Made by a program: the position numbers and the translations under genes
Source of the DNA: a virus
DNA: 64,000 nucleotides
Direction: 5' to 3' (one strand)
IMG/VR virus record: IMGVR_UViG_3300042691_042003
Coordinates: 124,001 to 188,000 of that record
The notes under the pieces: model-generated
Database searches by the model: none
What the model was told of the DNA's origin: nothing
The model's input: only the letters and a program-made list of their open reading frames with translations
In this document: positions 1,605 through 35,996 of the stretch, piece after piece
How the letters are laid out: the number at the start of each line of letters is the position of its first letter
How positions within the stretch are numbered: the stretch's first letter is position 1

Positions 1605-2383
1605 AAACGACAGTTGGAGACCACGGCAAAGGACGTTACTACGTGGTTGATGAAGACAGGAACATTAAGCTCCCTTCCGTAACGACAATACTTACCGAAA
1701 CTTCGGATAAATCAGCATTGGATGCTTGGGTAAAGCGTATAGGACAAGCTGAAGCCGATAAAATATCCACATTTTCTGCAAATCGAGGAACGTTCATGCA
1801 TTCACTTCATGAACATTACCTTTCTGCTAGATTTATTGAAAATCTAGAAAATCCCTTACAAATTTGTTTTAAAAGAGCTATTGAAGAATGCTCTTCTCTT
1901 ACTAAAGAAGAAATGGAAGTAGGGAAAAATCTTTTTCTTAATTTCCATAATAGCTCAGATTTTTATGAAAATGTAAAAGAAATTGCATTTCAAGAAGAAC
2001 CGGTTTGGTCTTTTTTAGGAGGAGGATATGCAGGAAGGTTAGATCTAATGATAAAGAATAAATCAGATGAATTTGTTCTTATAGATTTTAAGACTAGTAG
2101 AAAACCTAAAAAAGAAGATTGGATCGAAGGTTATAAAAAGCAAGTTTCTGCTTATTCTGTAGCTTCTAATGAAGTAAAAGGAATTTTTCCAATAAGATGC
2201 GAAATTTGGATTTCTTGTGAAACTGGAGAAGTACAAAAATTCTCAATAGAACGAGAGGATATAAAAAAATGGTTCTCAAAATTTTATGAAAATGTTCTAA
2301 CATATCATAAAACATTTCCTCAATATAATCATATAATGAATAATGATACCGAAGATAATACATCAAATCTGGGTAGGTCCTAA
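1601..2383 (+). CDS. PD-(D/E)XK (Cas4/RecB-like) nuclease
   Basis: The 260-residue protein has the core of PD-(D/E)XK exonucleases: GRLDLMIKNK supplies the first acidic ligand and VLIDFKTSRK supplies the D-x-K pair, at about residues 146-170. The N-terminal part (LPSVTTILTET, then RGTFMHSLHE) matches the PDDEXK_1-type phage exonucleases also found in T4-like cyanophages. Such enzymes degrade or trim DNA ends in recombination or host-DNA breakdown. The start is a TTG overlapping the previous stop; the first in-frame ATG, near 1796, would remove conserved sequence. Its 3' end overlaps the first glycosyltransferase gene by 41 nt in another frame. Confidence 0.75.
   Translation: MKTTVGDHGKGRYYVVDEDRNIKLPSVTTILTETSDKSALDAWVKRIGQAEADKISTFSANRGTFMHSLHEHYLSARFIENLENPLQICFKRAIEECSSLTKEEMEVGKNLFLNFHNSSDFYENVKEIAFQEEPVWSFLGGGYAGRLDLMIKNKSDEFVLIDFKTSRKPKKEDWIEGYKKQVSAYSVASNEVKGIFPIRCEIWISCETGEVQKFSIEREDIKKWFSKFYENVLTYHKTFPQYNHIMNNDTEDNTSNLGRS
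2330..2338 (+). promoter_or_regulatory. CATATAATG motif, possible late promoter
   Basis: The motif lies inside the end of the nuclease gene, 4 nt before the GT32 start. It matches the window-wide CATATAATA motif except at the last base, and its spacing to the gene is unlike the 19-25 nt of the convincing cases, so this site is doubtful. Confidence 0.25.
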
Positions 2384-2990
2384 AAAGAAACCTGTAAAAT
2401 ATATGCAAACCTGGAAGGATATGAATCCAGAATGGGAACATATTATTTGGGACGATGAAATGATATCTGAAAAATATCCTAAAGGTTTTCGTAATCAATC
2501 TAAAATTGACGAAATCGAAGAATGGGCAGGAAAAGCAGATATTATGCGTTATGAAATTCTTAATGATTTTGGAGGGATTTATATTGATGCAGATTCAATT
2601 TGTACTAATTCTTTAGACGATCATTTTTTAAAGCATGATTCTTTTGCTTGTTTTGAAAACGAACAATGTCGAGGTAATCTTATAGCTAATGGTTATATAG
2701 GTGCTGTAAAAGGATGTAATTTAATGAAAATACTTATTGAAAAAATAAGTAAAATGAAATCTGTTTCATTTCAAAAAACCGGTAAAATGGCATGGCAATG
2801 TGTAGGACCTCTTCTTTTTACCGAAACTATTTTTGAAAGTAATTATCCTATTTCTGTTTATCCTTCTTTTGTTTTTATTCCTGAACATTATTCTGGTATT
2901 GTTTATCAAGGAAATGGTAAGTCATATTCAAAACAATTCTGGGGATCTACACATGAATTTAAAGATCCTGAATATTATAACAATTTATGA
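2343..2990 (+). CDS. GT32-type glycosyltransferase (DXD, OCH1-like)
   Basis: This 215-residue protein begins IPKIIHQIWVG, the signature start of family GT32 / DXD-sugar-binding glycosyltransferases, followed by NPEWEHIIWDD, the KADIMRYEIL helix and the catalytic GGIYIDADS motif (DAD as the metal-binding DXD, about residues 78-80). It would transfer a sugar from a nucleotide donor onto a glycan or protein acceptor in the cytoplasm. It is the first gene of a long AT-rich glycan cluster and overlaps the next gene by 4 nt. The fold call is secure; donor and acceptor cannot be read from the sequence. Confidence 0.88.
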   Translation: MIPKIIHQIWVGPKKKPVKYMQTWKDMNPEWEHIIWDDEMISEKYPKGFRNQSKIDEIEEWAGKADIMRYEILNDFGGIYIDADSICTNSLDDHFLKHDSFACFENEQCRGNLIANGYIGAVKGCNLMKILIEKISKMKSVSFQKTGKMAWQCVGPLLFTETIFESNYPISVYPSFVFIPEHYSGIVYQGNGKSYSKQFWGSTHEFKDPEYYNNL

Positions 2991-3751
2991 ATAATAAAAT
3001 AACTGTCGTACTTAACGGATTCGGAAGGCCTCAACATTTTGATAGACAGCTAGATGCTGTAATGAATCAAACGGTAAAACCTACTGCGGTTATGTTATGG
3101 CAAAATGGAAATCAACATCAATTTCCCCCTTCTTCTGACAATCTAACTAAAGCCGTTTGTAATGATAATTTAGGTGTTTGGGCTAGATTTGCTTTTGCTC
3201 TTAATGCTAGGACTGAATGGATTTGTGTTTTTGATGATGATACAATTCCGGGTAATAGATGGTTTGAAAATTGCCTAGAAACTATGAAAACTCATGAAGG
3301 ACTTATGGGTACTGTAGGTATTCGACTTCATGGTGATTTAGGTATGTATCCGCTAAGACGTTATGGTTGGGCTGATATCAATAATAATAAACCTATCGAG
3401 GTAGATTATGTAGGGCATTCTTGGTTCTTTCATAGAGATTGGCTTTCTTTCTTTTGGAGAGAAATGCCACCTAAAGAACATAATATGTTAGTAGGTGAAG
3501 ATATTCATTTTTCACTTATGCTTAGAAAATGGGCAAATATAAATACTTTCGTTCCTCCACACCCTTCTAATGATAGATCTTTATGGGGATCTCAACCTGA
3601 AACAGCTCTTTCTATTGGAACCGATCAAGCTGCTCTTTCTATGAATCCTGGAAATCTGCAAAGAATGTCAGGATATGTAGAATTTGCAAAAACTATGGGA
3701 CTTCTTCCTATAAGAAAAAGGCCTGATTTTATTGAAGATGAAAATTTCTAA
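2987..3751 (+). CDS. GT-A-fold glycosyltransferase
   Basis: This 254-residue protein starts ITVVLNGFGRPQ and continues with a GT2-like sugar-nucleotide domain: LDAVMNQTVKPT, then WICVFDDDTIPG, where DDD is the expected metal/nucleotide site at about residues 83-85. A later WLSFFWREMP and GEDIHFSLML segment corresponds to the acceptor-side ED motif of GT-A enzymes. It overlaps the GT32 gene by 4 nt and the next gene follows after 2 nt, so the three are likely one transcript. The specific sugar is unknown. Confidence 0.8.
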   Translation: MNNKITVVLNGFGRPQHFDRQLDAVMNQTVKPTAVMLWQNGNQHQFPPSSDNLTKAVCNDNLGVWARFAFALNARTEWICVFDDDTIPGNRWFENCLETMKTHEGLMGTVGIRLHGDLGMYPLRRYGWADINNNKPIEVDYVGHSWFFHRDWLSFFWREMPPKEHNMLVGEDIHFSLMLRKWANINTFVPPHPSNDRSLWGSQPETALSIGTDQAALSMNPGNLQRMSGYVEFAKTMGLLPIRKRPDFIEDENF

Positions 3752-3753
3752 AA

Positions 3754-4941
3754 ATGGAAAAAATTAATATAAAATTTTTAAATCATTCTTCTTTCTATCT
3801 TGAAAGTGAAGAATATATTGTATTAGTAGATCCTTGGTATTCAGGGAAAATATTCAATAATAGTTGGTCTTTATTAAAAGATACAGAAGATTCTATTATA
3901 GATTATTCTAAGGTTAAATATATTTCGATTTCACATGAGCATCCAGACCATTTGCATTGGCCTACATTAAAAAAGATAAAAGAAAAAACAAAAGAAGTAA
4001 CAATACTTCTTCCTAAAAGAAATAATCCGAACGTTTTAGAAGAATGTATTAAATTAGGATATAAATTTAAGTATTTAGATTATTTTGTAGAAAATAAAAT
4101 AGAAGAAAATTTATCGATATATCCATATCCTCACGGACATGACAGTGCTCTTATTTATGAAATAGAAGATAAAATTATTCTAAATCAAAACGATGCTTAT
4201 TTAGAAGATAACGTAATTTCTACTATTAATGAAAAATTTAAAAAAATAGATCTGTGGTTATTTCAATTTAGTTTAGCAGGATATTACGGAAATCGTACAG
4301 ATCCTAATACTATAATAGAAAATGGAACTAAATTTCATATAGATAAATTTATAAAATATCAAAATGATTTTAAACCTATAATGAGTGTTCCTTTTGCAAG
4401 CTATGTATATTTTTGCAAAGAATATAATAATTATATTAATGATTATGCAGTTAAATTAGAAGATATTCTAGAAAAAACTAATTACATAACTCAAATTCCA
4501 TTTTATAATGAAAATATAGATTTTCATTCAAATACTATGAATAAAAATAATTTAGAAAAATGGAATGAAATATACGAAAATTGCAAAAAAGAAATTAAAA
4601 AAGCAGAACCTTTCCCTGGAGAAGAAATTATAATAGAAGGATTTAAAAAAATATACGATGAAGGATATAGAATTCTTCAAGTAGGTGGCCTTATTTTAGA
4701 ATTTTTTGATTATGATAAGAATCTAGTTATAGATACTTCTAATAATAAGTATTATTTTATTAAAAAAGAAGAAACTCCTAAAGATTGGATAGCCGGAATA
4801 CTTCCAAGTGAAGAACTTTTAGCTTATATTAAGACTCCATGGGGTGCTGATACCTTAAACATAACTGGTACATTTAATAAAATAAACAATGATCTTTGGT
4901 ATATTTTTATGATGTCCAAAGAATTATTATATCAAAGATAA
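3754..4941 (+). CDS. Metallo-beta-lactamase-fold hydrolase (UlaG-like)
   Basis: The 395-residue protein carries the zinc motif HEHPDH at residues 61-66, preceded by VLVDPWYSG (aspartate before the first strand turn), and a downstream GHDSAL histidine plus a QNDAY aspartate, all in the order expected for the metallo-beta-lactamase superfamily. UlaG-like members hydrolyse sugar lactones or phosphoesters, and related proteins occur in amino-sugar hydroxylation. Within this cluster a role in modifying a sugar precursor is plausible but not shown. From here AT content climbs sharply and leucine is mostly TTA. Confidence 0.8.
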   Translation: MEKINIKFLNHSSFYLESEEYIVLVDPWYSGKIFNNSWSLLKDTEDSIIDYSKVKYISISHEHPDHLHWPTLKKIKEKTKEVTILLPKRNNPNVLEECIKLGYKFKYLDYFVENKIEENLSIYPYPHGHDSALIYEIEDKIILNQNDAYLEDNVISTINEKFKKIDLWLFQFSLAGYYGNRTDPNTIIENGTKFHIDKFIKYQNDFKPIMSVPFASYVYFCKEYNNYINDYAVKLEDILEKTNYITQIPFYNENIDFHSNTMNKNNLEKWNEIYENCKKEIKKAEPFPGEEIIIEGFKKIYDEGYRILQVGGLILEFFDYDKNLVIDTSNNKYYFIKKEETPKDWIAGILPSEELLAYIKTPWGADTLNITGTFNKINNDLWYIFMMSKELLYQR

Positions 4942-6389: not shown

Positions 6390-7154
6390 ATGGAATATAT
6401 ACAAGGTCAAAAATTTAAAGAATTAAACGATAATCATAAAATCTATTATTGCGATACACATAACGTTAATTCCTTTTTTAATAATATTAATTTTTCCCAT
6501 GAATTTATTTTAGTATCACATAATAGTGATGGTAGTATAACCGATAACCCAACTACCGAATATGATGCAGATATTAGGAAAATACCTAAAAATTTAAAAA
6601 AATGGTTCGGACAAAATTTAAAATGTAAATCAGATATTATAGAATCTATACCTATAGGATTAGAAAATTCTATGTGGTTTCCGGAAGAAAGAAAGATAGA
6701 AAAATTATTTAATAAAAAAAGTACAGAAAAAAATCTTAAAAATTTAGTTTATTTAAATCTAAATATAGATAACAATCCTTTAATCCGAGGACCTATTTAT
6801 AATATGTTACAAAATAAAAATTATGTTACAGTTCAATACGGTAGGAATGGATTAAATTATGATAATTATTTAGATAATTTATATAATCATTGCTTTATGA
6901 TTTGTCCTGAAGGTAATGGAATAGATGTTCATCAGCCGTGGGAATCTTTATATATAGGAACAATACCGATACAAAAAAAGAATATAAATAACGAAAATTG
7001 GAGAGAACTCCCTATTTGTTGGCTTGACGAATGGGAACAATTAAATGATGAAAATTTCCTATTATTAGAATATAAAAGAATATCCGAAAAAAAATTCGAT
7101 TTATCTAAATTGGATTTTAATTTTTGGAAGAATAAGATAAAAAATTCTATATGA
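6390..7154 (+). CDS. Exostosin/GT47-like glycosyltransferase
   Basis: This 254-residue protein has the C-terminal signature of exostosin-like GT-B enzymes: an FMICPEGNG loop followed by HQPWESLYIGTIPI (about residues 170-195), where the Glu binds the donor nucleotide. Upstream are FILVSHNSDG and SIPIGLENSMW, as in GT47-like bacterial capsule enzymes. It is shorter than eukaryotic exostosins but normal for bacterial ones. It overlaps the downstream FAD oxidoreductase by 4 nt. Confidence 0.68.
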   Translation: MEYIQGQKFKELNDNHKIYYCDTHNVNSFFNNINFSHEFILVSHNSDGSITDNPTTEYDADIRKIPKNLKKWFGQNLKCKSDIIESIPIGLENSMWFPEERKIEKLFNKKSTEKNLKNLVYLNLNIDNNPLIRGPIYNMLQNKNYVTVQYGRNGLNYDNYLDNLYNHCFMICPEGNGIDVHQPWESLYIGTIPIQKKNINNENWRELPICWLDEWEQLNDENFLLLEYKRISEKKFDLSKLDFNFWKNKIKNSI

Positions 7155-8200
7155 AGATAATTGTTATTGGAGCAGGTATTTTTGGAATTACAGTAGCATT
7201 AACATTATCAGAAAATAATTATGATGTTACCTTAGTAGAAAGAGAAGATGATATAATGAATAAAGCCAGTAAATGTAATCATAATAGACTTCATTTCGGA
7301 TTTCATTATCCAAGAAGTGAAAAAACTGCTAAGCAAAGTTTAGAAGGATATGATTTATTTTATAAAAATTTTTCAGATTCGATCGTAAAAAATTTTCCAA
7401 ATTATTATTTAATAGAAAAAAATAGCAAAATTAATAAAGATAATTTTAAAATATTTTGTGATAAATTAAATTTATCTTATCGAGAATTATTTCCTAAAAA
7501 TATTGAAATTAATAAAAATAATATTACATTTTGTGCAATAACAAAAGAGCCAATATTTGATTTTAATTCTATAAAAAATGATCTATATAATAGACTAAAA
7601 AAATCAAAAATCAATTTAATTTTAAATAAAAAAATAGAATCGAAATCAGATTTAAATGATTTCGATGTTGTAATTAATACAACATACAGTAATATTAATT
7701 GTATTAATAATCTTTTTAATATTCCTGAAATAAAATTAAAATTACAAGATGTTATAATTCCTATATTTAGAATGAATTCTGAAAAAATAGGATTAACTAT
7801 TATGGACGGTGATTATTGTTCAATAATGCCAAAAGGTTTTGAAGAAAATACTTTTTTATTATATCATGTAAAATATTCAGTCTTAAAAGAAAGTAAAGGA
7901 TATTTAGAAGACGAAAATTTAATAAATAATAATCCAGATTATATTAAGGATAAAATCGATAAAATTTATAAAAATTCAGAGAAATATTATCCTTTTTTAA
8001 AAAATTGTGAAAAAATTTCTTATTGGAGAACTACAAGAGCTTTACCTATAAATAATGATGATGAAAGATTAAGTACATTAACAATAAATAATATAGAAAA
8101 TAAAAAAATAATATCTCTTTTATCCGGTAAAATAACTACATGTTGGTTAATATCTAAAAAAATACTAAATATATTAAATGAAAACGATATTAATAGGTAA
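7151..8200 (+). CDS. FAD-dependent oxidoreductase (DAO-like)
   Basis: The 349-residue protein opens with a Rossmann dinucleotide site, GAGIFG at residues 7-12, ending in VTLVERE where the acidic residue binds the FAD ribose. The following RLHFGFHYPRS is typical of D-amino-acid-oxidase/glycerol-oxidase-like flavoproteins found in nucleotide-sugar clusters. It probably oxidises a sugar or amino-sugar intermediate. A second Rossmann-type oxidoreductase starts inside its 3' end with a 23-nt overlap, so the two probably act in sequence. The local sequence is extremely AT-rich (the line from 7441 to 7500 has 8 G/C in 60 bases). Confidence 0.75.
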   Translation: MKIIVIGAGIFGITVALTLSENNYDVTLVEREDDIMNKASKCNHNRLHFGFHYPRSEKTAKQSLEGYDLFYKNFSDSIVKNFPNYYLIEKNSKINKDNFKIFCDKLNLSYRELFPKNIEINKNNITFCAITKEPIFDFNSIKNDLYNRLKKSKINLILNKKIESKSDLNDFDVVINTTYSNINCINNLFNIPEIKLKLQDVIIPIFRMNSEKIGLTIMDGDYCSIMPKGFEENTFLLYHVKYSVLKESKGYLEDENLINNNPDYIKDKIDKIYKNSEKYYPFLKNCEKISYWRTTRALPINNDDERLSTLTINNIENKKIISLLSGKITTCWLISKKILNILNENDINR

Positions 8201-8942
8201 CGGTTATTGGGGATCTATAGTAAAAGAAAAATTAGAAAAACAAACCGATTTAATAGGGGTTTTAAATTCTAAAGATAATATTGATTCTTTTTTAAAAAAA
8301 GAAGTAGATTATATTTTTGTTTGTACTCCTACAAAAACCCATTACGAAATTGTTAAGAAATGTATAGAAAATCATAAAAATGTTTTTTGTGAAAAACCTT
8401 TTACGGGTAATTTCTTTAAAGCTAAAGAATTATATAAAATTTCAGAAAAAAATAATACAAAATTATTCGTCGATAATATTTTTTTATATCGCAATGAGTT
8501 AATTAATATTGAAAGTAATAATTTTAAAAAAATTAAATTTTTATGGAATAAATTTGAAAATCTATATAAAGAAGATCTGTTTACAACATTATTGTATCAT
8601 GATCTCTATTTATTATTAAATATAGCAAAAAATACATGGGACGTAGATTATTTAGAAATATTTGAAGATAAATTAAATTTAAAATTAAAAAATAAAAATT
8701 TAAAAGCAGAATTTATTTATGATAGAAATTATATAGGGAAAAAAGAAAAAAAGATATTTATAGACGATAAATTAATAGATTTTTCTAATCCTTCTAACGA
8801 CCCTTTATCAGAAATAATAGATAATTTAATAAAAAATAATATTAATTTTAATGAAAATAAAAAAATAACTTTGAAAACAATAAAATTATTAAATAAAATA
8901 CAAAATGAATCCATTTTACACACACCAAGAAGTATTAAATAA
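8178..8942 (+). CDS. Gfo/Idh/MocA-family oxidoreductase
   Basis: This 254-residue protein has an N-terminal NAD(P) Rossmann fold (ILIGNGYWGS), the VCTPTKTH segment that closes it, and the diagnostic CEKPF motif whose Glu-Lys-Pro is at residues 72-74. It is shorter than the usual 320-350 residues, with a reduced C-terminal domain. Family members oxidise or reduce hydroxyls of nucleotide sugars and inositols. Its neighbours suggest a sugar-nucleotide dehydrogenase step. It overlaps the next gene by 38 nt in another frame. Confidence 0.78.
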   Translation: MKTILIGNGYWGSIVKEKLEKQTDLIGVLNSKDNIDSFLKKEVDYIFVCTPTKTHYEIVKKCIENHKNVFCEKPFTGNFFKAKELYKISEKNNTKLFVDNIFLYRNELINIESNNFKKIKFLWNKFENLYKEDLFTTLLYHDLYLLLNIAKNTWDVDYLEIFEDKLNLKLKNKNLKAEFIYDRNYIGKKEKKIFIDDKLIDFSNPSNDPLSEIIDNLIKNNINFNENKKITLKTIKLLNKIQNESILHTPRSIK

Positions 8943-9451: not shown

Positions 9452-10141
9452 ATGATTTTAAGTACAAAAGATATTGAAGATATTTATTCTCAATTTATTT
9501 TACCTAAAAAAAATGAGAATTATTTTAAAAAATATTCTTCTCTCCCAATTCATTTAAATAATAAAAAATGGAAATGGGAAGGAAAAGATTTTCCTAGAAT
9601 TATATCCCTCTTAGAATTTAAAGAATTTTTAGATAAAATGGAAAATCCTTTTTTTGAAAATGTGTTATCTTTTAATGGAGATTCTGATCCGGAATATGAA
9701 TTTTTAAAATACAAAAATTTAACAAATTATAATTATACAGATGATACTCTAAAATATGATTTACATAATTTAGAATTAGAAAAAAAAGATTTTGATTTTT
9801 TTATGTCTAATCAAACTTTAGAACATTTATATGACCCTTGTAAAGTTGTTAGAAATATTTACGATCATATGAAACCCGGAGGAATCGTTTATATGAATCT
9901 ACCGACAAATAATATGCCTCATTCTACACCATTTCATTATTATACAGGATTTACTCCTGTAGGTTTAGGTTGTATTTTTAAACAAGCAGGATTCAAAATA
10001 TTGGATATAGGTTTTTGGGGGAATCGGGAATATTTAGATTTTTCACTTTTTAAAAATATTTGGGCAGATTATACTCAAATGAATAATTTTTCTTCTGAAA
10101 TGGATAAAGAAGTAATTTCTTGGATTTTTGCTATAAAATAA
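9452..10141 (+). CDS. Class I SAM-dependent methyltransferase
   Basis: The 229-residue protein contains FFMSNQTLEHLYDP (motif IV region with the E-H pair typical of Methyltransf_11/23 enzymes) and YDHMKPGGIVYMNLP (the post-motif helix with the KPGG turn). The N-terminal SAM loop is divergent (NVLSFNGDSDPEYEFLK), so SAM binding is inferred from overall layout. It starts 4 nt after the previous methyltransferase and probably acts on the same or a related sugar. Confidence 0.68.
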   Translation: MILSTKDIEDIYSQFILPKKNENYFKKYSSLPIHLNNKKWKWEGKDFPRIISLLEFKEFLDKMENPFFENVLSFNGDSDPEYEFLKYKNLTNYNYTDDTLKYDLHNLELEKKDFDFFMSNQTLEHLYDPCKVVRNIYDHMKPGGIVYMNLPTNNMPHSTPFHYYTGFTPVGLGCIFKQAGFKILDIGFWGNREYLDFSLFKNIWADYTQMNNFSSEMDKEVISWIFAIK

Positions 10142-10155
10142 AATTTAAATAAATT

Positions 10156-10872
10156 ATGAATTATGACGCGGTAATTTTATCATCAGAGAAGGATTATATT
10201 AAATTAGATTTTTTATTGGATTCTTTAATAAATTTAGACCCAAAACCTGAAAATATCTTTGTTATAAGTCCTACTGAAATCAAAGAAAAAAGAAAAGAGG
10301 TTAATTATTTTTTAGATGATGAAGTCCTTAAATTTAAAAAAGAAAATCTAAAATTTAGACCTAATTGGATTAAACAACAATTCTTAAAGCTATTTCAAGA
10401 TATTACAAAAAACGACTATTACCTAATTTTAGATTCAGATATTTTTTTAAATAAAAAAATAGAAATCTTTAAGAATAATAAACCTAATTTTCTTCTTTCG
10501 GTAGATCAAAACCATAAACCCTATTTTGATTTTTTAGAAAATTTTGGAATAAAGAAAATTTATGAAAGATCTTTTATATCTGAAATAATGTTATTTAATA
10601 AAAAAATCATAAGAAGGTTTTTAGAGGATTCTAATTTAACAGTCGATTCTTTTATTAATAAATCTATAGAAATAATTAACGATAATTGTTATATTTCGGA
10701 ATTTGAATTTTATGGAAATATGGTTCTTAAGTATTATCCTGATTTATATGATTTCACTATTTTAAATACAAGAGTTATAGGAAAACATGAAGATTGGAAT
10801 AAAAATGAAATATTGCAAACAATAAATAATAATCAAGATTTAGATATCATATCATATCACACATGGAAATAA
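10156..10872 (+). CDS. Glycosyltransferase-like protein (DUF6492-type layout)
   Basis: The 238-residue protein starts YDAVILSSEKDYIKLDFLLDS and has NDYYLILDSDIFL at about residues 90-102, where DSD is a DXD metal site of GT-A enzymes. The order start-strand, KQQFLKLF helix, then DSD resembles small phage and capsule glycosyltransferases grouped under DUF6492. It overlaps the next gene by 10 nt. The DXD reading is direct; the family name is tentative. Confidence 0.6.
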   Translation: MNYDAVILSSEKDYIKLDFLLDSLINLDPKPENIFVISPTEIKEKRKEVNYFLDDEVLKFKKENLKFRPNWIKQQFLKLFQDITKNDYYLILDSDIFLNKKIEIFKNNKPNFLLSVDQNHKPYFDFLENFGIKKIYERSFISEIMLFNKKIIRRFLEDSNLTVDSFINKSIEIINDNCYISEFEFYGNMVLKYYPDLYDFTILNTRVIGKHEDWNKNEILQTINNNQDLDIISYHTWK

Positions 10873-11790: not shown

Positions 11791-12462
11791 ATGATGGATA
11801 ATATAAACATTGATAAAGAAAAAATATGTATACTTTACACAGGGAAAAGCGAATTTATAAACGAAATAAAAAAAATTAAGAATTATAATAATTATAATTT
11901 TATTTTTTCTACATGGAAAGGTAATGAAAGTAAATACGAAAAGAATGATGTAGTCGTTTTTAATGATACTTCTAATTTAGCGATAAAAACAAGTTTAGAA
12001 TTACAAAGAATAACTATTTTAGAAGGATTAAAAAAATCAAAAGAATTAGGTTTTAGAAGAACTTTAAAATTAAGAGATGACTTAATTCCTACTAATTTAG
12101 ATAAATTTTTAGAATTAATAAACAATGAAAATATTAATATATTATGCTGGCATGAACATAATATAGGGTTACCTGGTTATTTTGTAGATTATCTAATTTC
12201 AGGAGAAACTGATTTATTAATAGACGTATATTCTAATATAGATATAAATTTTCATCAAGTATCAGAAGCCCCTTATACTAAATCATTATTAAGATATTCA
12301 GATAAAATAAAATTTTTCCTTTATGATTTAAATCAAAATAATAATGATTTATTTTGGTTTAGGATAGGTGATTTTTTAAGTAGCTACAATCCTAATTTAA
12401 TTCATACCAGTAAGTATATGCATTTAGAAAATTACGAAAATATTAAAAAAGAATATTTATGA
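11791..12462 (+). CDS. WavE-like LPS/glycan synthesis protein
   Basis: This 223-residue protein follows the WavE plan: ICILYTGKSEF, then FIFSTWKGNE, then LQRITILEGLKKSKELGF and TLKLRDDLIP, the last being the R-x-D motif that marks family members in lipopolysaccharide core clusters. It probably transfers or modifies a core-type sugar. The annotation rests on motif order rather than an alignment. The ATG at 11791 follows a short gap and an ATG at 11794 is also in frame. Confidence 0.62.
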   Translation: MMDNINIDKEKICILYTGKSEFINEIKKIKNYNNYNFIFSTWKGNESKYEKNDVVVFNDTSNLAIKTSLELQRITILEGLKKSKELGFRRTLKLRDDLIPTNLDKFLELINNENINILCWHEHNIGLPGYFVDYLISGETDLLIDVYSNIDINFHQVSEAPYTKSLLRYSDKIKFFLYDLNQNNNDLFWFRIGDFLSSYNPNLIHTSKYMHLENYENIKKEYL

Positions 12463-13184
12463 ATATATTAATACCTATGGCTGGAAGAGGAGAACGATTT
12501 AGTAATAATGGTTTTGACATTCCTAAACCTCTAATAGAATTAGAGGGTAAAACTATGATAGAATTAGCAATAAAATCTCTAAATATAGAAGGTAATTATA
12601 TATACGTAACATATAGATACACTAATAAAGAATTTAATCAAAAATTAGAAGAAATTCTTAATAGGATAACTCCTAATTGCACCATTATAAAAATAGATTA
12701 TATTACAGAAGGTCCTGCTTCCAGTGCATTATTAGCAAAAAAATACATAGATAATGAAGAAGAATTAATCATAACTAATTGTGACCAAATAATGTCATGG
12801 GATTCCAAAAATTTTTTAGAATTTATCAAAAAAACTGACAAAGAAGGTATAGTTGTTACGTATAATTCTTCTACCGAAAAGAATTCATATGTTAAATTAA
12901 ACGAAATAGGAGATGCAATAGAGTTAGCCGAAAAAAAGGTTATAAGCGAATTTTCCTTAAATGGTATACATTATTGGAAAAAAGGAAAATACTTTGTAGA
13001 ATCGGCAGAAGATATGATATCAAAAAATATAAGAGTAAATAATGAATTTTATATTTCTATGACATATAATGAAATGATTGAAAAAAAACTTAAAGTATCT
13101 AATTATCATATAATAAATAATCATCATCACGCAGTAGGTACTCCAGAAGATCTAAAAGAATATTTAAAAAATGGAAGTAAGTAG
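12459..13184 (+). CDS. Sugar nucleotidyltransferase (NTP-transferase family)
   Basis: The 241-residue protein starts NILIPMAGRGERFSNNGF and continues PKPLIELEGKTMIE, the signature nucleotide loop (G-x-G-x-R-F) and the P-K-P-L lysine motif of NDP-sugar pyrophosphorylases. A central ITNCDQIMSW supplies the metal-binding aspartate. It would make an NDP-activated sugar from a sugar 1-phosphate and NTP, providing the donor for the glycosyltransferases here. It overlaps the cupin gene by 14 nt. The exact sugar is not determinable. Confidence 0.85.
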   Translation: MNILIPMAGRGERFSNNGFDIPKPLIELEGKTMIELAIKSLNIEGNYIYVTYRYTNKEFNQKLEEILNRITPNCTIIKIDYITEGPASSALLAKKYIDNEEELIITNCDQIMSWDSKNFLEFIKKTDKEGIVVTYNSSTEKNSYVKLNEIGDAIELAEKKVISEFSLNGIHYWKKGKYFVESAEDMISKNIRVNNEFYISMTYNEMIEKKLKVSNYHIINNHHHAVGTPEDLKEYLKNGSK

Positions 13185-13491
13185 ATTCGAAAATTATAAA
13201 GACGGCTGGTTTGTTGGTGATTTTTTTCCTTCTGCATATAAAACCAATCTATTCGAGGTATGTTACAAATTTCATAAAAAAGGTGAAGTTTGGGATAAAC
13301 ATTATCATAAGGTTTCAACCGAAATAAATTATTTAATTGAAGGAGAGATGATTATTCAAGAAAAGAAATTAAAAAGTGGAGATGTATTTGTCATACATCC
13401 TTATGAAATTGCAGATCCGGAATTTATTTCTGATTGTAAATTAATTATTATAAAAACCCCTTCTAGCACAAAAGATAAATACACAATTTAA
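13171..13491 (+). CDS. Cupin-domain protein
   Basis: This 106-residue single-domain protein shows both cupin motifs: KHYHKVSTEINYLIEGE (histidines and glutamate of motif 1, about residues 47-63) and GDVFVIHPYEIAD (motif 2). Small cupins in sugar clusters act as epimerases, isomerases or binding proteins; here all metal-ligand positions appear filled. It sits between the nucleotidyltransferase and the RuBisCO-like gene, overlapping the former and ending 7 nt before the latter, so the three look like one pathway unit. Confidence 0.78.
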   Translation: MEVSRFENYKDGWFVGDFFPSAYKTNLFEVCYKFHKKGEVWDKHYHKVSTEINYLIEGEMIIQEKKLKSGDVFVIHPYEIADPEFISDCKLIIIKTPSSTKDKYTI

Positions 13492-13498
13492 AAAAGAT

Positions 13499-14731
13499 AT
13501 GGCAATAAATATTTTCACAAAAGATATTAATTACGAAAATTATTTTATCGTAAAATATTATTTAAAAGGAAGAACTTCCTTAAAAACAGCAGCTTGGAAT
13601 TTGGCTATAGGACAAAGTATAGGAAATCCTAATAATCGAAGCGTTTGGGAAACCGACCAAATGTTTCTAGATCATAGTTGTTTTATTTTAGAAGATGAGA
13701 AATATCTAGAATCGGTAAAAGAAGGAGAAATAGAAATTGCTTTTCCTTTAGCAAATTTAAATCTAGAAGAAGATGGAATATCTCAAATTCTTTGTCATAT
13801 TGCAGGTGGACAAGTAGATATCTTAGAATTAGAAATGTGTCATGTTTTAGATATTAATTTACCGAAAAAAATAGAAGATAAATTTAGATTAAAACCTGCA
13901 TTTGGTATTGATGGTTTTAGGAAATTTAATGGAGTTAAAGAAAAACCATTTTTTGGAGGAATTATTAAACCTAAGGTAGGAATGAGTCCTAAAATTCTTT
14001 TAGAAGCAGTGAAAGAGATGGTAGATGGAGGAGTTAATTTTATTAAAGAAGATGAATTATTAGGAAATCCTGATCATTGTAAATTATCAGAAAGGGTTCC
14101 TCTAATCACTAATTGGTTAACAAAAAATGCACCAAATGTTATATACACTTTTTGTATTAATGGAGATTCTCCTTATGCATTAGAAAGAGCTAATTTCGTA
14201 GAGAAGGAAGGAGGAAATGGAATTCATATTAATGTTTGGAGTGGATTAGGGATTTATAGAGCGATTAGAAAACAAAATCCTAACTTATGGATTCATTTTC
14301 AAAAAAGTGGAGATAAATTCTTTACTGATCGTAGATCTCCTTTTCATATATATTGGCCGGTTATTTGTAAAATTGCTGGATGGTCCGGTGCTGATTCGAT
14401 ACATGCTGGAATGATTGGAGGATATATGAATCAAGACGATCAAGAATTATCAGATTCTTTAAAAGTTTTATGGAAGTATAATATTGTTCCTGCTCTAAGT
14501 TGTGGAATGCATCCAGGTTTAGTTCAATACATAAATCAATTATTAAATAGTTATGATTGGATGGCTAATGTAGGAGGTGCAATGCACGGTCATCCTATGG
14601 GAACATTATCTGGAGGCCTTGCAATGAGACAAGCAATTGACGGAAATATTGACAAACCTGAATATAAGGCTGCTATAGAAAAATGGGGTACAAAAGAATT
14701 TTCTTCGGATTTAGCTTATAGAATATTTTAA
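13499..14731 (+). CDS. RuBisCO-like protein (form IV type)
   Basis: The 410-residue protein aligns by eye along the RuBisCO large-subunit fold. GIIKPKVGMSP holds K157 and K159 (K175/K177 in the spinach enzyme). FIKEDE holds K183, D185 and E186, matching the carbamylated lysine and both magnesium ligands. LWIHFQ gives H266 (H294), SIHAG gives H302 (H327) and ALSCG gives S334 (S379). The loop-6 catalytic lysine (K334) is replaced by tyrosine 309, R295 by phenylalanine and N123 by histidine, so CO2 fixation is unlikely. Form IV proteins isomerise, enolise or transcarboxylate sugar phosphates. Here it follows a cupin and a sugar nucleotidyltransferase, suggesting a role in making an unusual sugar. 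The fold assignment is firm; the reaction is inferred. Confidence 0.9.
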   Translation: MAINIFTKDINYENYFIVKYYLKGRTSLKTAAWNLAIGQSIGNPNNRSVWETDQMFLDHSCFILEDEKYLESVKEGEIEIAFPLANLNLEEDGISQILCHIAGGQVDILELEMCHVLDINLPKKIEDKFRLKPAFGIDGFRKFNGVKEKPFFGGIIKPKVGMSPKILLEAVKEMVDGGVNFIKEDELLGNPDHCKLSERVPLITNWLTKNAPNVIYTFCINGDSPYALERANFVEKEGGNGIHINVWSGLGIYRAIRKQNPNLWIHFQKSGDKFFTDRRSPFHIYWPVICKIAGWSGADSIHAGMIGGYMNQDDQELSDSLKVLWKYNIVPALSCGMHPGLVQYINQLLNSYDWMANVGGAMHGHPMGTLSGGLAMRQAIDGNIDKPEYKAAIEKWGTKEFSSDLAYRIF

Positions 14732-14744
14732 AAATAAAATAAAA

Positions 14745-15314
14745 ATGGAAACTTTGTTAGATGTAATAAAAAAATTTAATTTATATAAAAATTCTCATTT
14801 AGACGGAACTGATAAAGCTTATATTCATGATTTTATATCAGTTTTTTATCAAAAAGAATTTGAAAAAATTAAAAACAAAGAAATAAAAATCTTAGAAATA
14901 GGAACTTGCACGGGAGCATCTTTAAAATTATGGAAAGAATATTTTAAAAATTCTAAAGTAGAAGGAGTAGATATTCAAGATAGAGTAATGCCGGAATATA
15001 GAGATTCTAATATTAAGTATCATATAGGAGATGCATATAATTATGATTTTATTAATAAAATATCTAAAGAAAAATACGATATTATTATAGATGATGGACC
15101 TCACACAATAGAAACTCAATTATTTTTCGTTAATAATTATCATAAAATGTTAAATAATAAAGGATATTTAATAATTGAAGATGTAGATTCCGATGATAAT
15201 ATTAAAGCATTAAAAGAAAAAATACAAGAAATTTTTAAATCTGAACCTTTTGTATATGATAAAAGGAAAGAAATGAATATGAATAATGAAGTACTAATTT
15301 CAATAAAAAAATAA
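14745..15314 (+). CDS. Class I methyltransferase (CmcI/rhamnosyl O-methyltransferase-like)
   Basis: The 189-residue protein has ILEIGTCTGASLKLW (motif I, SAM glycine loop, about residues 50-64), VEGVDIQDR (motif II aspartate) and DIIIDDGPHTIETQ (motif IV with paired aspartates and His, typical of CmcI-like and mycinamicin/rhamnose O-methyltransferases). These enzymes methylate sugar hydroxyls with a bound divalent metal. It follows the RuBisCO-like gene by 13 nt and is followed after 4 nt by another methyltransferase. Confidence 0.82.
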   Translation: METLLDVIKKFNLYKNSHLDGTDKAYIHDFISVFYQKEFEKIKNKEIKILEIGTCTGASLKLWKEYFKNSKVEGVDIQDRVMPEYRDSNIKYHIGDAYNYDFINKISKEKYDIIIDDGPHTIETQLFFVNNYHKMLNNKGYLIIEDVDSDDNIKALKEKIQEIFKSEPFVYDKRKEMNMNNEVLISIKK

Positions 15315-15318
15315 AATT

Positions 15319-15954
15319 ATGTTAATACAAAACTTTATAGATTTTATCAATACAAAACAAAAAATAGATCCTAAAATTATATTAGATATAGGTTCTAGAG
15401 ATTTAGATCAAAGTATTGAATTTAATTCGATATTTCCTAATTCTGTAATACATGCTTTTGAGCCAAATCCTGATCAATTTGCAATATGTGAAGAAGCTTC
15501 AAAAAATTATCCTAATATTCATGTTCATCAATTAGCAATTAGTAATAAAAAAGAAACTTTAAAATTCTATAGAACTATAGGAAATATAGGAGCCTCTTCT
15601 CTATTAGAACCAATTGATGTACCTTTTGGATGGACTAAAGAATATAATATTATTGATGTAGAATCCGAAAGGTTAGATTCTTGGTTAAAAAATAATAATA
15701 TAAAAGAAGCAGATATACTTTGGATGGACGCTCAAGGCGTAGAATTATTAGCTCTAGAAGGAATGGGAGAATTCTTAAAAGATGTAAAATTTATTCATTG
15801 TGAAGCTTCCGAAAAACCTTATTATAAAGGACATATCTTAAAAGAAGAATTAGAAAAATTTTTAGTAGATTCCGGTTTCGAAATAGAATTCCATCCAGTT
15901 TTTCATCCTTACGGAGAAGGTGATATATTCGCAGTTAATAAAAGATTTAACTAA
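15319..15954 (+). CDS. FkbM-family methyltransferase
   Basis: The 211-residue protein follows the FkbM layout closely: ILDIGSRDLDQS (SAM loop), VIHAFEPNPDQF (motif II with the E-P-N-P signature), IGNIGASSLLEP, then ERLDSWLKNN and LWMDAQGVELLALEGM (the D-x-x-G-x-E-x-x-x-L-x-G block). FkbM enzymes O-methylate sugars or polyketides and are common in capsule clusters. Length and motif order are complete, so it should be active. Confidence 0.88.
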   Translation: MLIQNFIDFINTKQKIDPKIILDIGSRDLDQSIEFNSIFPNSVIHAFEPNPDQFAICEEASKNYPNIHVHQLAISNKKETLKFYRTIGNIGASSLLEPIDVPFGWTKEYNIIDVESERLDSWLKNNNIKEADILWMDAQGVELLALEGMGEFLKDVKFIHCEASEKPYYKGHILKEELEKFLVDSGFEIEFHPVFHPYGEGDIFAVNKRFN

Positions 15955-15979: not shown

Positions 15980-16417
15980 ATGATTCTAATTTCACATAGA
16001 GGCAATATTTCAGGAAGAATAGAAGGTTTTGAAAATAAACCCGAGTATGTAGAAGACACGATAAGACTTGGATTTGATGTTGAAGTAGATCTAAGAATTC
16101 ATAATCAAAAGCTATATCTAGGACATGATGAACCTCAATACGAAATTTCTCTAGATTGGTTATATGAAAGAAATTCTAAACTTTGGATTCATTGTAAAGA
16201 TATTCAATCTCTACTTAAAGTAAGAGATAAACCACTTCATTTCTTTTGGCATGAAGAAGATACAATTACTCTAACTTCAAAAAATTATATTTGGGCATAT
16301 CCAGGAAAACAACCGATAAAGGGATCTATAGCAGTTATGCCAGAAATATATAATGATAATTTAGATCATTGTATTGGTATCTGTTCTGATTTTATAGGAA
16401 ACTATAAACAAAAATAG
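15980..16417 (+). CDS. Glycerophosphodiesterase-like (PI-PLC fold) small protein
   Basis: This 145-residue protein starts ILISHRGN and has GFDVEVDLRIHNQKLYLGHDEP, matching the H-R-G, E-x-D and H-D metal and catalytic positions of glycerophosphodiester phosphodiesterases, but it is about half the usual length. Small proteins of this type occur in sugar-phosphate clusters, where they may act on a nucleotide-sugar or phosphodiester. It is the last gene of the island; GC rises again after it. The catalytic set looks intact, the substrate is unknown. Confidence 0.65.
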   Translation: MILISHRGNISGRIEGFENKPEYVEDTIRLGFDVEVDLRIHNQKLYLGHDEPQYEISLDWLYERNSKLWIHCKDIQSLLKVRDKPLHFFWHEEDTITLTSKNYIWAYPGKQPIKGSIAVMPEIYNDNLDHCIGICSDFIGNYKQK

Positions 16418-17226: not shown

Positions 17227-17513
17227 ATAAAATAGATTCTTACATAAGAACAAATTTTCATTACATTGCTCTTTTCTTTTTGATTTTTAATTTTTTTAAT
17301 TCTTGTGATAGAGAAATAGGAAGACTCTCTAAAAGAATTGCAAAGCTAGAAGTTAAAATTGATTCACTCACTCAAGTAGTAGTTACTCGTAAAGATCTTA
17401 AAATTGAAGGTCTTCGTTCAGAAAAAAGGATGATCCAGTCTACCGATCGTAAAATCCTTGATGTTAATAGACAATCAGAAATTGATAGAGAGATTGAATC
17501 CCTATCCAAATGA
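17223..17513 (+). CDS. Membrane-anchored coiled-coil protein
   Basis: The 96-residue protein has one hydrophobic segment at about residues 13-28 ([15 protein letters not shown]) ending at a cysteine, then a long heptad region ([18 protein letters not shown]). It could be a lipoprotein or a single-pass membrane protein with a cytoplasmic or periplasmic coiled coil, comparable in layout to phage spanins or lysis accessory proteins, but no lysis gene is adjacent. It overlaps both neighbours by 4 nt. Confidence 0.6.
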
Positions 17514-18694
17514 ATTCATTAGATAAACAATACAAAGATCTACTTCAAACAATTCTAGATTTTGGAGTAGAAAAGAAAGATCGAACAGGAACCGGAACTA
17601 AATCAATTTTTGGTTACACTATTCGTCATTCTATGAAAGAAGGATTCCCACTTCTTACTACAAAGAAGATGCATTGGAAATCTATTGTCACTGAACTCCT
17701 TTGGTTTCTTCGAGGTGATACGAATATCAAATTTCTAGTAGATAATGGATGTCATATTTGGGATGGAGATGCGTATAAGAATTACGCATGGAAAACATCT
17801 ATGGATTCCGATGGACAACTAACAAAAGAAGAATTCATTGAACGTATTAAAATCGACGATGAATTTGCAAAACATTGGGGTGATCTAGGCCCAATTTATG
17901 GTAAGCAATGGAGAAATTGGAATGGTAAGCAGGTTTCTGTAATGGATGGAAAGGTAATGACGACAATTATAGATCAAATCTCTGATCTAATTGAAAATAT
18001 TAAAACAAATCCAGATAGTCGACGTCTAATGGTAAGTGCATGGAACCCTGTGGAATTAGATCAAATGGTTCTTCCTCCTTGTCATTATGGATTTCAAATG
18101 TACACGAGGGAGCTTTCTCTAAAAGAGAGAATGGAATTATGGGAAGCACTTCCTGATCGAGATGTTATGGATTTTCCTATAGGTCCTCTTTCCGACGAAC
18201 AATATCATGAAGTACTAACACAAATTGGTGTTGAAGAAAGAGCTATTTCACTTATGTGGAATCAACGTTCAGTCGATACTTTTCTGGGTCTACCTTTTAA
18301 TATTGCTTCTTACGGACTTCTTCTTTCTATTATTGCAAGAGAGGTTGGTATGGTTCCTGATCAACTTATAGGTAATCTAGGAGATGTTCATCTTTATTTA
18401 AATCATATCGAACAAGCAAAAGAACAAATTGGCAGAGATTATACATGGGAAGAACAAGTAGAATGGGTAATGAAAAATACCGATGTAGAAATGGAAAATC
18501 TTTATATTGTAGAAGAAATTTCTAAGGAAACTACACCTAAAAATACAAGACAACCCTTTCATCTTCCTACTTTAAAAATGGCAGATCATTCCATGTACGA
18601 AGGAAATTTTCTTCCTCAATATTGGTTTCCTTCAGATTTTGAAATTCTAAATTATCAATCCCATCCACCTATTAAAGCTCCTCTTTCTAATTAA
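17510..18694 (+). CDS. thyA: Thymidylate synthase (ThyA type) with an internal insertion
   Basis: ThyA converts dUMP to dTMP using methylene-tetrahydrofolate. The 394-residue protein has the R-T-G-T phosphate loop ([12 protein letters not shown]), the [11 protein letters not shown] block, [11 protein letters not shown] and the catalytic cysteine C191 in [11 protein letters not shown], followed by [13 protein letters not shown] and the GDVHLYLNH folate motif. Between about residues 201 and 246 there is an extra acidic segment ([12 protein letters not shown] through GVEERA) not present in the 264-residue E. coli enzyme. The rest is intact, so it should be active. It supplies thymidine for AT-rich phage DNA and pairs with FolE at 42653. 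The next gene overlaps by one base. Confidence 0.95.
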
Positions 18695-30189: not shown

Positions 30190-31629
30190 ATGAGCACTTT
30201 CGTTAAAGCAATGCAAAATAGAAACGAGGTTACCAAAAACGGTATGGTAACTAATAGTTCATCTCTTTCTTCTTGTGTAGATTTGTTCTTCACTATTGGA
30301 GCTTATCGATCTAAGGTCAATGATCCTCAAGCAATGATGGATCTTATAGGTAAACTTGAAGCTTCTTTCAGTCAGGATCCTTTGCTTACTCGTAAAATGC
30401 TTTTTTGGGTAAGGGATGTACGAGGAGGTGCAGGTGAACGAGAAGTTTTCCGTAAAATCCTTCGTTATCTTTGCCATACATATCCAAAATATGTAGAAAA
30501 TAACATCCATCTAATTCCTGAATTTGGTAGATGGGATGATCTTTTTATTACTTTCGGTACTTCTGTAGAAGATGTTGCAATGGAATTTATTGAAGATACT
30601 TTAAGTAGTGAAAATTCAGGTCTTCTTGCTAAATGGATTCCTAGGACAGGAGGTAAAATTTCTAAGGAGAAAAGAGTAATTGCTAATAAGATTAGGACTC
30701 ACTTAGGAATGACTCCTCGAGATTTTCGTAAATTTATCGTTTCTAAAACCAATGTTGTAGAACAACAAATGTGTAAGAAGGAATTTGATAAAATCGAATA
30801 TCAAAAAGTTCCTTCTCTTGCAATGAGCCGTTATACAAATGCTTTCCAGAAGAATGATTCTGAAGGTTATGGAAAATATATTTCTGCTGTTCAATCAGGT
30901 GAAGCTAAAGTAAATGCTTCTGCTGTTTATCCTTATGATATTGTAAAAAATCTTCGATACGGAGATCAAAATCTTTCTATTGAACAATGGAAAGCTCTTC
31001 CAAATTTCATGGAAGGAAGTAAAGAAAGAGTACTTCCTGTATGTGATGTTTCTGGTTCAATGGAAACTCCTGTTAGTGGAATAACAACTGCATTAGATGT
31101 TTGTATCTCATTAGGTCTTTATATTTCTGAAAGAAACGAAGGTCCTTTTAAGAATGCATTTATTACATTTTCCGAAAACCCTACTCTTCAATATTTGCAA
31201 GGTGATTTACGGTCTCGTTTTATGCAACTTCAATCCTCTGAATGGGGAATGAATACAAATCTAGAAGGAACATTTAAAACAATTCTAGAACAAGCTAAAA
31301 AGAACGATCTTATACAAGAAGAAATGCCTACTTGCATTCTTATTATGTCAGATATGGAATTTGATCAGGCAATCGATCATGAAGAAACTGCAATGGATAT
31401 GATTCGTAGAGAATTCGATTCTCATGGATATGATCTTCCTAAAATTGTTTTTTGGAATCTTAATGCAGGAAAAAGAAATATTCCTGTTCAAATGGATGAA
31501 AATGGGACTGCTTTGATTAGTGGATTCTCTCCTTCCATTCTTAAATCAGTTCTTTCTGGATCTACTATGACCCCTGAATCCATTATGATGGAAACACTTA
31601 ACACAGAAAGGTACTCTGTTGTAAAATGA
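30190..31629 (+). CDS. DUF2828 / TROVE-vWA (Ro60-like) protein
   Basis: The 479-residue protein follows the DUF2828/TROVE layout: an alpha-helical repeat domain at about residues 25-245 (LLTRKMLFWVRDVRGGAGER, FGRWDDLF, LLAKWIPR, VPSLAMSRYTNAF) and a von Willebrand A domain from about 280 with the MIDAS motif DVSGS at 286-290, a MNTNLEG threonine and SDMEFD aspartate. All MIDAS residues are present. The related Ro60/Rsr proteins form a ring that binds Y RNAs and misfolded RNA and works with exonucleases in RNA quality control. The upstream non-coding region with stable stems may supply its RNA partner. The family is clear; RNA binding is inferred. Confidence 0.85.
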   Translation: MSTFVKAMQNRNEVTKNGMVTNSSSLSSCVDLFFTIGAYRSKVNDPQAMMDLIGKLEASFSQDPLLTRKMLFWVRDVRGGAGEREVFRKILRYLCHTYPKYVENNIHLIPEFGRWDDLFITFGTSVEDVAMEFIEDTLSSENSGLLAKWIPRTGGKISKEKRVIANKIRTHLGMTPRDFRKFIVSKTNVVEQQMCKKEFDKIEYQKVPSLAMSRYTNAFQKNDSEGYGKYISAVQSGEAKVNASAVYPYDIVKNLRYGDQNLSIEQWKALPNFMEGSKERVLPVCDVSGSMETPVSGITTALDVCISLGLYISERNEGPFKNAFITFSENPTLQYLQGDLRSRFMQLQSSEWGMNTNLEGTFKTILEQAKKNDLIQEEMPTCILIMSDMEFDQAIDHEETAMDMIRREFDSHGYDLPKIVFWNLNAGKRNIPVQMDENGTALISGFSPSILKSVLSGSTMTPESIMMETLNTERYSVVK

Positions 31630-34773: not shown

Positions 34774-34980
34774 ATGAAAGGCAAACTTGTAAAATTTAAT
34801 GGTGATTGGGTTATCCAATATTTTGATGCATTTTCCGTAAGTAATATCCCTTTACATCCGGCAGATAAAACTTCTTTTTTAAACGAAGGATCTGAAGTAG
34901 AATTCGATATTTTTGATGAAGAAGTAATGATCGAAGGTAAAGATAGGTTTGCTAGAATTTTAATCCAACATAATTTTTAA
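34774..34980 (+). CDS. Unidentified small beta-rich protein
   Basis: The 68-residue protein is strand-rich (GKLVKFNGDWVIQYF, then GSEVEFDIFDEEVMIEG), resembling a small barrel domain. It ends on the first base of the PurA-like gene, so the two are translated together. Function unknown. Confidence 0.55.
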   Translation: MKGKLVKFNGDWVIQYFDAFSVSNIPLHPADKTSFLNEGSEVEFDIFDEEVMIEGKDRFARILIQHNF

Positions 34981-35996
34981 TGGAAATAGACGTAATATTA
35001 GGACTTCAATACGGAGATGAGGCAAAAGCTAAATGCACTTATTCTCTTCTAAAACCTCATCCTGGAGGTGGATCTGATGAATATGATTATGCTTTTCGAT
35101 TTAATGGAGGACCTAATGCAGGTCATACCATTTATCATGAAAAACGTAAGATCGTAACTCATCAAGTTCCAATTGGTGTATTTTTTGATATACCTTCCAT
35201 TATCGGACCCGGATGTGTTGTTGATTTAGGAAAGCTAGAAGCCGAAGTAAAAGAAATTTCGGAATTTCTAGGAAAGGATATATCTAATCTTATTTCTATA
35301 GATTATCGAGCACACATCATAACCGAAGAACATAAAGAATTAGATTCGGATGGATCTACTATTGGATCGACTCGTTCAGGTATTGGTTATGCATATTCTG
35401 ATAAACATCTTAGAAGAGGAATCCGTTTTGAAAATGTCGTTTCAGATTTTCAAAAGATCGATTCTCTACAAATTCTAAACGGACAAAACGATTATTTTAT
35501 CCTATTTGAAGGAGCTCAAGGATGGGGTTTAGATATTAATTTTGGTGATTATCCTTACGTAACTTCTTCTCTTTGTGGAATTGCAGGGGTAATTGCAAGT
35601 GGTGTAAGACCTATCGATATACGTAACGTAATTGGAGTAGCAAAGATATATGAAACTTACGTAGGTAACAAACAATTTCAATCGGAAGATCCGATTTTTA
35701 TACGATTACAAGAAGAAGGACAAGAGATTGGTGCAACAACCGGTCGTAAAAGACAATGTAATTGGTTAGATTTAGATCGTCTAATCGAGGCTTGTAGTGT
35801 TAATCAAGTCACTGCAATTATTATAAACAAAACTGATATTCTTGAAAAGGTAGGAGTTTTTAAGTGCTTCTTTGAAGGAAAAATGAAAGAATTTAATTCT
35901 ATTGATGATCTAAAAGATTTTATCACTAAAACTTTAGAAGAATCATTTGGAGAAGATTTTCCGATTGTTTTTTCTGATAATCCTTATACTATATGA
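34980..35996 (+). CDS. Adenylosuccinate synthetase, short PurA/PurZ-like form
   Basis: The enzyme joins IMP (or a deoxy-guanine analogue in PurZ) to aspartate using GTP or ATP. The 338-residue protein has LGLQYGDEAKAK (phosphate loop with D13), NGGPNAGHTIYHEK with catalytic His49, GSTRSGIGYAYSDK, LFEGAQGWGLDINFGDYPYVTSS and GATTGRKRQCNWLDLD, all landmarks of the family. D13 and the catalytic His are retained; in described PurZ enzymes the Asp is often Ser. Length (338) is close to archaeal PurA and phage PurZ rather than bacterial PurA (~430). It follows thioredoxin and overlaps flanking genes by 1-4 nt. PurA versus PurZ cannot be settled from sequence alone. Confidence 0.85.
   Translation: MEIDVILGLQYGDEAKAKCTYSLLKPHPGGGSDEYDYAFRFNGGPNAGHTIYHEKRKIVTHQVPIGVFFDIPSIIGPGCVVDLGKLEAEVKEISEFLGKDISNLISIDYRAHIITEEHKELDSDGSTIGSTRSGIGYAYSDKHLRRGIRFENVVSDFQKIDSLQILNGQNDYFILFEGAQGWGLDINFGDYPYVTSSLCGIAGVIASGVRPIDIRNVIGVAKIYETYVGNKQFQSEDPIFIRLQEEGQEIGATTGRKRQCNWLDLDRLIEACSVNQVTAIIINKTDILEKVGVFKCFFEGKMKEFNSIDDLKDFITKTLEESFGEDFPIVFSDNPYTI

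Follow-up and report, generated by a model that had tools for sequence, protein, structure and literature searches.

A RuBisCO-like protein within a conserved gene module of viral glycan clusters

The DNA analysed in this study, hereafter the window, is a stretch of 64,000 nucleotides corresponding to bases 124001-188000 of a linear 246-kb IMG/VR virus record (IMGVR_UViG_3300042691_042003). A terminase is encoded at 103.5 kb of the same record, in line with the initial annotation of the window, which had described the gene of interest as phage-encoded. This gene is a single intact open reading frame encoding a RuBisCO-like protein (RLP) and is surrounded by the genes listed in Table 1. Glycosyltransferases, methyltransferases, a nucleotidyltransferase and a cupin are all found around it, as expected from the glycan-cluster setting first proposed. 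The genes are closely packed: the cupin gene starts 14 bp before the nucleotidyltransferase gene ends, and the RLP gene is separated from its neighbours by 7 and 13 bp. Between positions 4001 and 14000 the GC content of the glycan cluster is 0.21-0.25, markedly below that of the remainder of the window (~0.30-0.40), as expected for an acquired region. Among the glycosyltransferases, 3754-4941 (+ strand) also encodes a protein of 395 aa containing a domain of the metallo-beta-lactamase fold (Lactamase_B_3).

Table 1. Genes of the RLP locus and of the surrounding glycan cluster (window coordinates)
Feature	Coordinates	Strand	Remarks
Gly_transf_sug (DXD) glycosyltransferase	2343..2990	+	glycan cluster
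Family-2 glycosyltransferase	2987..3751	+	glycan cluster
FAD-dependent (DAO) oxidoreductase	7151..8200	+	outside conserved core
GFO_IDH_MocA-type oxidoreductase domain	8178..8942	+	outside conserved core
SAM methyltransferase	9452..10141	+	glycan cluster
DUF6492 protein	10156..10872	+	glycan cluster
Protein without Pfam hit	11791..12462	+	recurrent neighbour (cluster 22, 11 loci); N-terminus resembles WavE-type LPS glycosyltransferases by eye
Stand-alone NTP_transferase (sugar-phosphate nucleotidyltransferase)	12459..13184	+	241 aa; Pfam, family profile
Single-domain cupin	13171..13491	+	106 aa; start overlaps nucleotidyltransferase end
RLP	13499..14731	+	410 aa; distinct clade; retains carbamate Lys and metal ligands, Tyr in place of loop-6 Lys
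Class I SAM methyltransferase	14745..15314	+	variable slot between RLP and GDPD-like gene
FkbM-family methyltransferase	15319..15954	+	recurrent in 15/79 loci
Minimal GDPD-like protein	15980..16417	+	~145-148 aa; HRG / EN / ExD / HD motifs

Several genes further along the window deserve mention. The thymidylate synthase encoded at 17510-18694 (+) is 394 aa long, compared with 335 aa for the PHROG profile, and the match skips a stretch, so that the protein may contain an insertion. The 479-aa product of 30190-31629 (+) matches PHROG 850 (RNA-binding protein) over its full length (E 2.9e-148). An adenylosuccinate-synthetase homolog of 338 aa (34980-35996, +; PF00709, E 5.6e-73) has '2-aminooxy adenylosuccinate synthetase' as its best PHROG; this PurZ-type gene could mean a 2-aminoadenine (Z) genome, but its GDE..K motif keeps the Asp. 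On the opposite strand, 36503-37969 (-) encodes a protein of 488 aa whose C-terminal part is a Laminin_G_3/concanavalin-like lectin domain; it may be an adhesin or a tail-associated protein that binds carbohydrates.

The identification of the RLP as a real RuBisCO homolog, made from the sequence at the outset, agrees with the intact reading frame and with profile, sequence and fold searches. The protein matches RuBisCO_large (PF00016) above the cut-off (E 1.2e-32), and the N-terminal domain PF02788 falls marginally below it (20.0 bits for a cut-off of 20.7). A sequence search of the PDB retrieved form III RuBisCO (E 1.6e-34). An AlphaFold2 model computed from a 26-sequence alignment (pLDDT 90.5, pTM 0.89) has the RuBisCO fold: the top Foldseek ranks are the form III enzymes of P. 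horikoshii and T. kodakarensis (2d69/2cwx; TM ~0.82, rmsd ~3.5), immediately followed by the RLPs 3nwr, 1tel, 2oem, 2qyg and 4nas. The structure prediction that had been suggested as a check is therefore in agreement with the assignment. The gene is under strong purifying selection, with a pN of 0.09 and a pS of 0.71 between the window and its closest relative (L003).

The active site was examined in an alignment of 41 RLP family members with form I-III, MtnW and OiaX-like references (spinach numbering), from which the arrangement of the metal site was also judged. K175, K177, K201, D203, E204, S379, G381 and G403 are kept in every family member covering the position (41/41 or 40/41), as is H327 in all members covering it; no viral, bacterial or archaeal member deviates in the catalytic lysines or metal ligands. 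In the window protein, the carbamylation lysine and the metal ligands (K183, D185 and E186) are kept, and so are K157, K159, H302 (H327) and S334 (S379); G359/G360 correspond to G403/G404, and the loop-6 lysine K334 is Tyr309. All these residues agree with the initial annotation. Its statement that R295 is Phe has to be revised. The window motif WIHFQKSGD aligns with (L/I)H.HRAMH, H266 corresponding to H292, Gln268 to H294 and Lys269 to R295; the earlier register was two residues off, Phe267 is not the R295 equivalent, and the implied pairing of H266 with H294 does not hold. Across the family, the fixed changes are H294 to Q (41/41), R295 to K (40/41, with Arg in the other member), K334 to Y and G380 to C, and further changes are E60 to G, T65 to N and N123 to G. 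Since Q268 is invariant and K269 is present in all members but the one with Arg, the phosphate-2 site (R295/H327/S379) is conservatively modified, not lost. What the family has clearly lost, to judge from the alignment, is the loop-6 lysine, which RuBisCO requires for gas addition.

In a maximum-likelihood tree, all 41 members lie on one side of a branch with a support of 100/100. The RLP family is outside all the other groups, namely forms I-III together (99/96; form II being a single sequence on a long branch), the OiaX-like proteins (100/100) and two MtnW-type rows, both long, which alone make up the MtnW branch. As the references do not include IV-Photo, IV-NonPhoto, DeepYkr, AMC or GOS sequences, 'separate clade' is valid for the forms tested. 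Profile scores are bimodal, with 465-660 bits for the RLP family and at most 266 bits for all other RuBisCOs and RLPs tested. The phylogeny on which, according to the initial annotation, its reading could fail thus places the RLP outside forms I-III, in a tree comprising these forms, OiaX-like proteins and MtnW. By its sequence features, the family is form IV in the broad sense, i.e., a RuBisCO homolog with substituted catalytic residues lying outside forms I-III, and both the active site and the tree position argue against a carboxylating RuBisCO. The name form IV-GOS was reportedly given in 2007 by Tabita to RLPs from the Global Ocean Sampling. Groups of RuBisCO homologs clustering with no known form were described in an ocean survey of the same year (Yooseph 2007, PMC1821046), and IV-GOS is listed as a form IV subgroup in a review (PMC10173188). 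These marine metagenomic homologs have an aquatic setting in common with the RLP clade; because the clade occurs in SAR11 and in many aquatic viruses, it may be, or overlap with, form IV-GOS or the unplaced GOS homologs, for which the open-licence literature gave neither a host nor an operon nor a link to viruses.

We compared the gene neighbourhoods of 79 viral RLP loci, including the window (54 after dereplication at 90% RLP identity). An NTP_transferase of ~240 aa is present in 76/79 loci (52/54 dereplicated), the small 106-aa cupin in 71/79 (49/54) and the GDPD-like protein in 63/79 (46/54). All core partners are encoded on the same strand, and NTP-cupin-RLP is the usual gene order, with very different flanks. 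The genes around this core are variable and include glycosyltransferases, FkbM and other methyltransferases, and epimerases. For the nucleotidyltransferase family profile, the best PDB match is 4evw, an NDP-sugar pyrophosphorylase of V. cholerae (E 4e-31). The assignment of the third partner as GDPD-like is made with moderate confidence: the HRG, EN, ExD and HD motifs are invariant in its family, and its model (pLDDT 94) matches GDPDs with a probability of ~0.9 and poor E-values; the family profile has weak matches to GDPDs (best E 0.0013), and Pfam gave no match for the window protein. A longer GDPD (PF03009) is encoded near the RLP in nanoarchaeal and verrucomicrobial loci. The initial annotation had associated the RLP with a cupin, a nucleotidyltransferase and oxidoreductases. 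The link with the first two is maintained in widely differing viruses as well as in O-antigen-type clusters of cells; the oxidoreductases are present in the window but do not belong to the core, which also includes the GDPD-like protein, absent from that list.

RLP relatives were found on at least 355 IMG/VR viral contigs with a broader alignment, a first scan having given 88. No RLP match was obtained by tblastn against the INPHARED phage genomes, and a fold search of the BFVD viral protein models returned no RuBisCO fold (best TM 0.36-0.38), so that neither collection provides a cultured phage carrying an RLP. Plasmids yielded distant RLPs and RuBisCOs only, which were used as references. 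Among prokaryotes, 19 RLP loci were found in 84,980 species genomes, in SAR11, other alphaproteobacteria, Bacteroidota, Patescibacteria, Verrucomicrobia, Elusimicrobia and DPANN archaea. Surveys by group gave 2/347 genomes for the SAR11 order and 2 clear members in 327 genomes for the DPANN phylum sampled, where the remaining matches score as form III-like. Three further surveys gave 1/82, 1/199 and 1/333; in the last, a second genome reached 266 bits with a protein scoring near form III RuBisCO. The RLP is thus rare and scattered in cells. At least one module partner accompanies it in 15/19 cellular loci, and the four loci with no recognisable partner include several short contigs. On a SAR11 chromosome (L083), a GDPD-NTP-RLP set adjoins an O-antigen ligase (Wzy_C) gene and a GT4 gene, beside transhydrogenase genes; in a nanoarchaeal locus, RLP-NTP is accompanied by a GDPD of full length and by a gene of the polysaccharide flippase type.

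The partners also occur without the RLP. The GDPD-like protein is encoded on at least 567 viral contigs and the cupin on 548, and the RLP is absent within 5 kb from 71 of the best 80 GDPD-like loci and from 18 of the best 80 cupin loci. In loci without RLP, the same nucleotidyltransferase family usually occurs as a fusion with a HAD domain, either N-terminal (~455 aa) or C-terminal (~365 aa). Among dereplicated nucleotidyltransferases, 82 are stand-alone and 7 fused in the RLP-containing set, versus 6 and 47 in the set without RLP (Fisher p 2.5e-23, for sets that were seeded differently and are phylogenetically structured). The fusions do not form one clade, as 7 changes were counted in a FastTree tree. 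A strict rule by which the RLP replaces HAD was dropped, because a few loci carry a HAD-NTP fusion and an RLP side by side; for this reason we favour a common pathway in which the RLP contributes one more sugar-phosphate step. Fusions of the same nucleotidyltransferase to a HAD domain that is beta-phosphoglucomutase-like by eye are seen near a GDPD-like gene in many viral loci (e.g., L273 926-2293 and L301 2355-3725), and the HAD-nucleotidyltransferase set is itself a viral glycan module of wide occurrence. In a single case, in a viral glycan cluster (L371 7241-8395), the nucleotidyltransferase is fused to an RpiB/LacAB sugar-phosphate isomerase (PF02502, E 1.7e-33), a useful hint on the substrate class. 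Both kinds of fusion share with the RLP module the nucleotidyltransferase family and the GDPD-like and cupin partners; what sets them apart is the HAD or RpiB domain and, in most cases, the lack of a nearby RLP.

How the RLP might act was weighed against the known activities of the superfamily. A role in true carbon fixation, as a RuBisCO acquired among auxiliary metabolic genes, would fit with form III RuBisCO being the best sequence match of the RLP, and viral RuBisCO-large (rbcL) has been tabulated under CO2 fixation (PMC12607003). Form III enzymes (archaeal/DPANN; PDB 2cwx, 2d69, 8dht) resemble the RLP in fold (TM ~0.82, ~27% identity) and in the carbamate Lys/Asp/Glu, K175/K177, H327 and S379. 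However, the RLP belongs to a separate clade, and Tyr at K334, Gln at H294 and Lys at R295 are found in essentially all family members, along with the changes at E60, T65 and N123. The window protein is also under every RuBisCO model cut-off (149.7 bits for NCBIfam rubisco_III, cut-off 497), and the glycan operon contrasts with the nucleotide-salvage context of form III; the neighbours examined included no recognisable phosphoribulokinase or AMP-pathway gene. Carbon fixation was rejected on the residues, the model cut-offs and the tree, and we give it almost no credence. Methionine salvage is also highly improbable, whether as a R. rubrum-type methylthioribulose-phosphate isomerase or as MtnW, the 2,3-diketo-5-methylthiopentyl-1-phosphate enolase of Bacillus/Geobacillus. 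MtnW is of the same superfamily, has a RuBisCO-like fold (TM ~0.8) and enolises without carboxylation, and its NCBIfam models match the window protein significantly (102 and 76 bits). These scores are nevertheless far under the cut-offs (409 and 513.6 bits), MtnW lies on a separate branch and is changed otherwise at K177, R295, H327 and K334, and methionine-salvage genes were not recognised in viral or cellular RLP loci. Membership in MtnW was rejected on the cut-offs, the residues and the neighbours.

The main rival is an enzyme that decarboxylates or hydrolyses a sugar-acid phosphate in the manner of OiaX, the 3-oxo-isoapionate-4-phosphate decarboxylase of apiose catabolism, but would here build a branched or shortened sugar instead of degrading one. 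OiaX and its relatives are form IV proteins acting on sugar phosphates, with the same fold and metal ligands as the RLP, and both would rely on the same enolate chemistry and metal site; RLPs with such chemistry act on branched-sugar phosphates (PMC6302742), and the NCBIfam OiaX model (NF042437) is among the significant matches of the window protein. Its score of 116.8 bits is yet far under the cut-off of 700, and the clade is separate (100/100). In OiaX, H294, R295 and K334 are kept while K177 and H327 are changed, the RLP family being the reverse, and the four-carbon-acid sugar kinases that accompany the catabolic OiaX-type genes were not recognised in RLP loci. OiaX membership was rejected on all four grounds (cut-off, clade, residues and neighbours), and we consider an OiaX-like activity unlikely. 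The replacement of several RuBisCO catalytic positions could also suit an inactive scaffold, or a structural protein with a moonlighting role, kept in the glycan operon; the invariance of the catalytic lysines and metal ligands from viruses to archaea and the purifying selection on the gene speak against it and make it improbable.

It seems rather probable that the RLP is a metal-dependent sugar-phosphate enolase or isomerase, of the form IV kind, in a short pathway to an NDP-linked sugar or polyol for surface glycans. This reading is based on the fold, the carbamate-lysine/metal site, the loss of the loop-6 lysine, the separate clade, and the operon with the nucleotidyltransferase, cupin and GDPD-like genes. 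In such a pathway, K183 would be carbamylated and, with D185/E186, would hold Mg2+, which would polarise the carbonyl of a ketose phosphate; a proton would be moved via an enediolate, and no CO2 or O2 would be added without the loop-6 Lys. A cupin isomerase, and a HAD step provided in cis or by the host, are possible further steps before activation. The adjacent nucleotidyltransferase would then activate the isomerised sugar phosphate, and the neighbouring glycosyltransferases would use the product. The module would originate from cells, from which phages probably took it, and might serve to alter the surface of the infected cell, e.g., by blocking other phages, or to glycosylate phage products. 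The role first suggested for the RLP, an unusual sugar for surface or virion glycans, thus stands as a proposal consistent with the glycan cluster and the conserved nucleotidyltransferase/cupin link. As a tentative extension, about which we are more doubtful than confident, the family could represent an unrecognised anabolic branch of the RuBisCO superfamily, which would supply surface glycans with a novel activated sugar (an NDP-ketose, perhaps, or a rare pentose), mainly in phages of aquatic microbes, and be partly interchangeable with the HAD- and RpiB-linked versions; essentially all viral 'rbcL' of this kind would then serve glycan synthesis, not carbon fixation.

The initial annotation knew of no described phage system using an RLP in glycan synthesis. 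We likewise found no link between an RLP and glycan synthesis in the openly licensed literature; the genes themselves are not new, since viral rbcL/RuBisCO-large is already listed among auxiliary genes of landfill and hydrothermal viromes (PMC12607003, PMC10159854) and unplaced homologs have been reported (PMC1821046). A pattern scan of viral contigs by the method of the RLP search, using two short motifs and restricted to forms I and III of RuBisCO (form II and other RLPs being outside its scope), gave no match. With at least 355 viral contigs carrying the RLP versus none carrying form I/III, CO2-fixation annotations of viral 'rbcL' probably need correcting. In hundreds of aquatic viruses, and in a few bacteria and archaea, a distinct RLP shares a compact operon with a sugar-activating enzyme, so that viral 'rbcL' of this kind probably helps to decorate cell surfaces rather than to fix carbon. 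The four-gene set and its HAD- and RpiB-fused variants constitute a small expressible system for direct tests of the chemistry. The characterised RLPs in the literature cited here act in salvage or breakdown; an RLP building surface sugars would, if true, be a new role for the fold.
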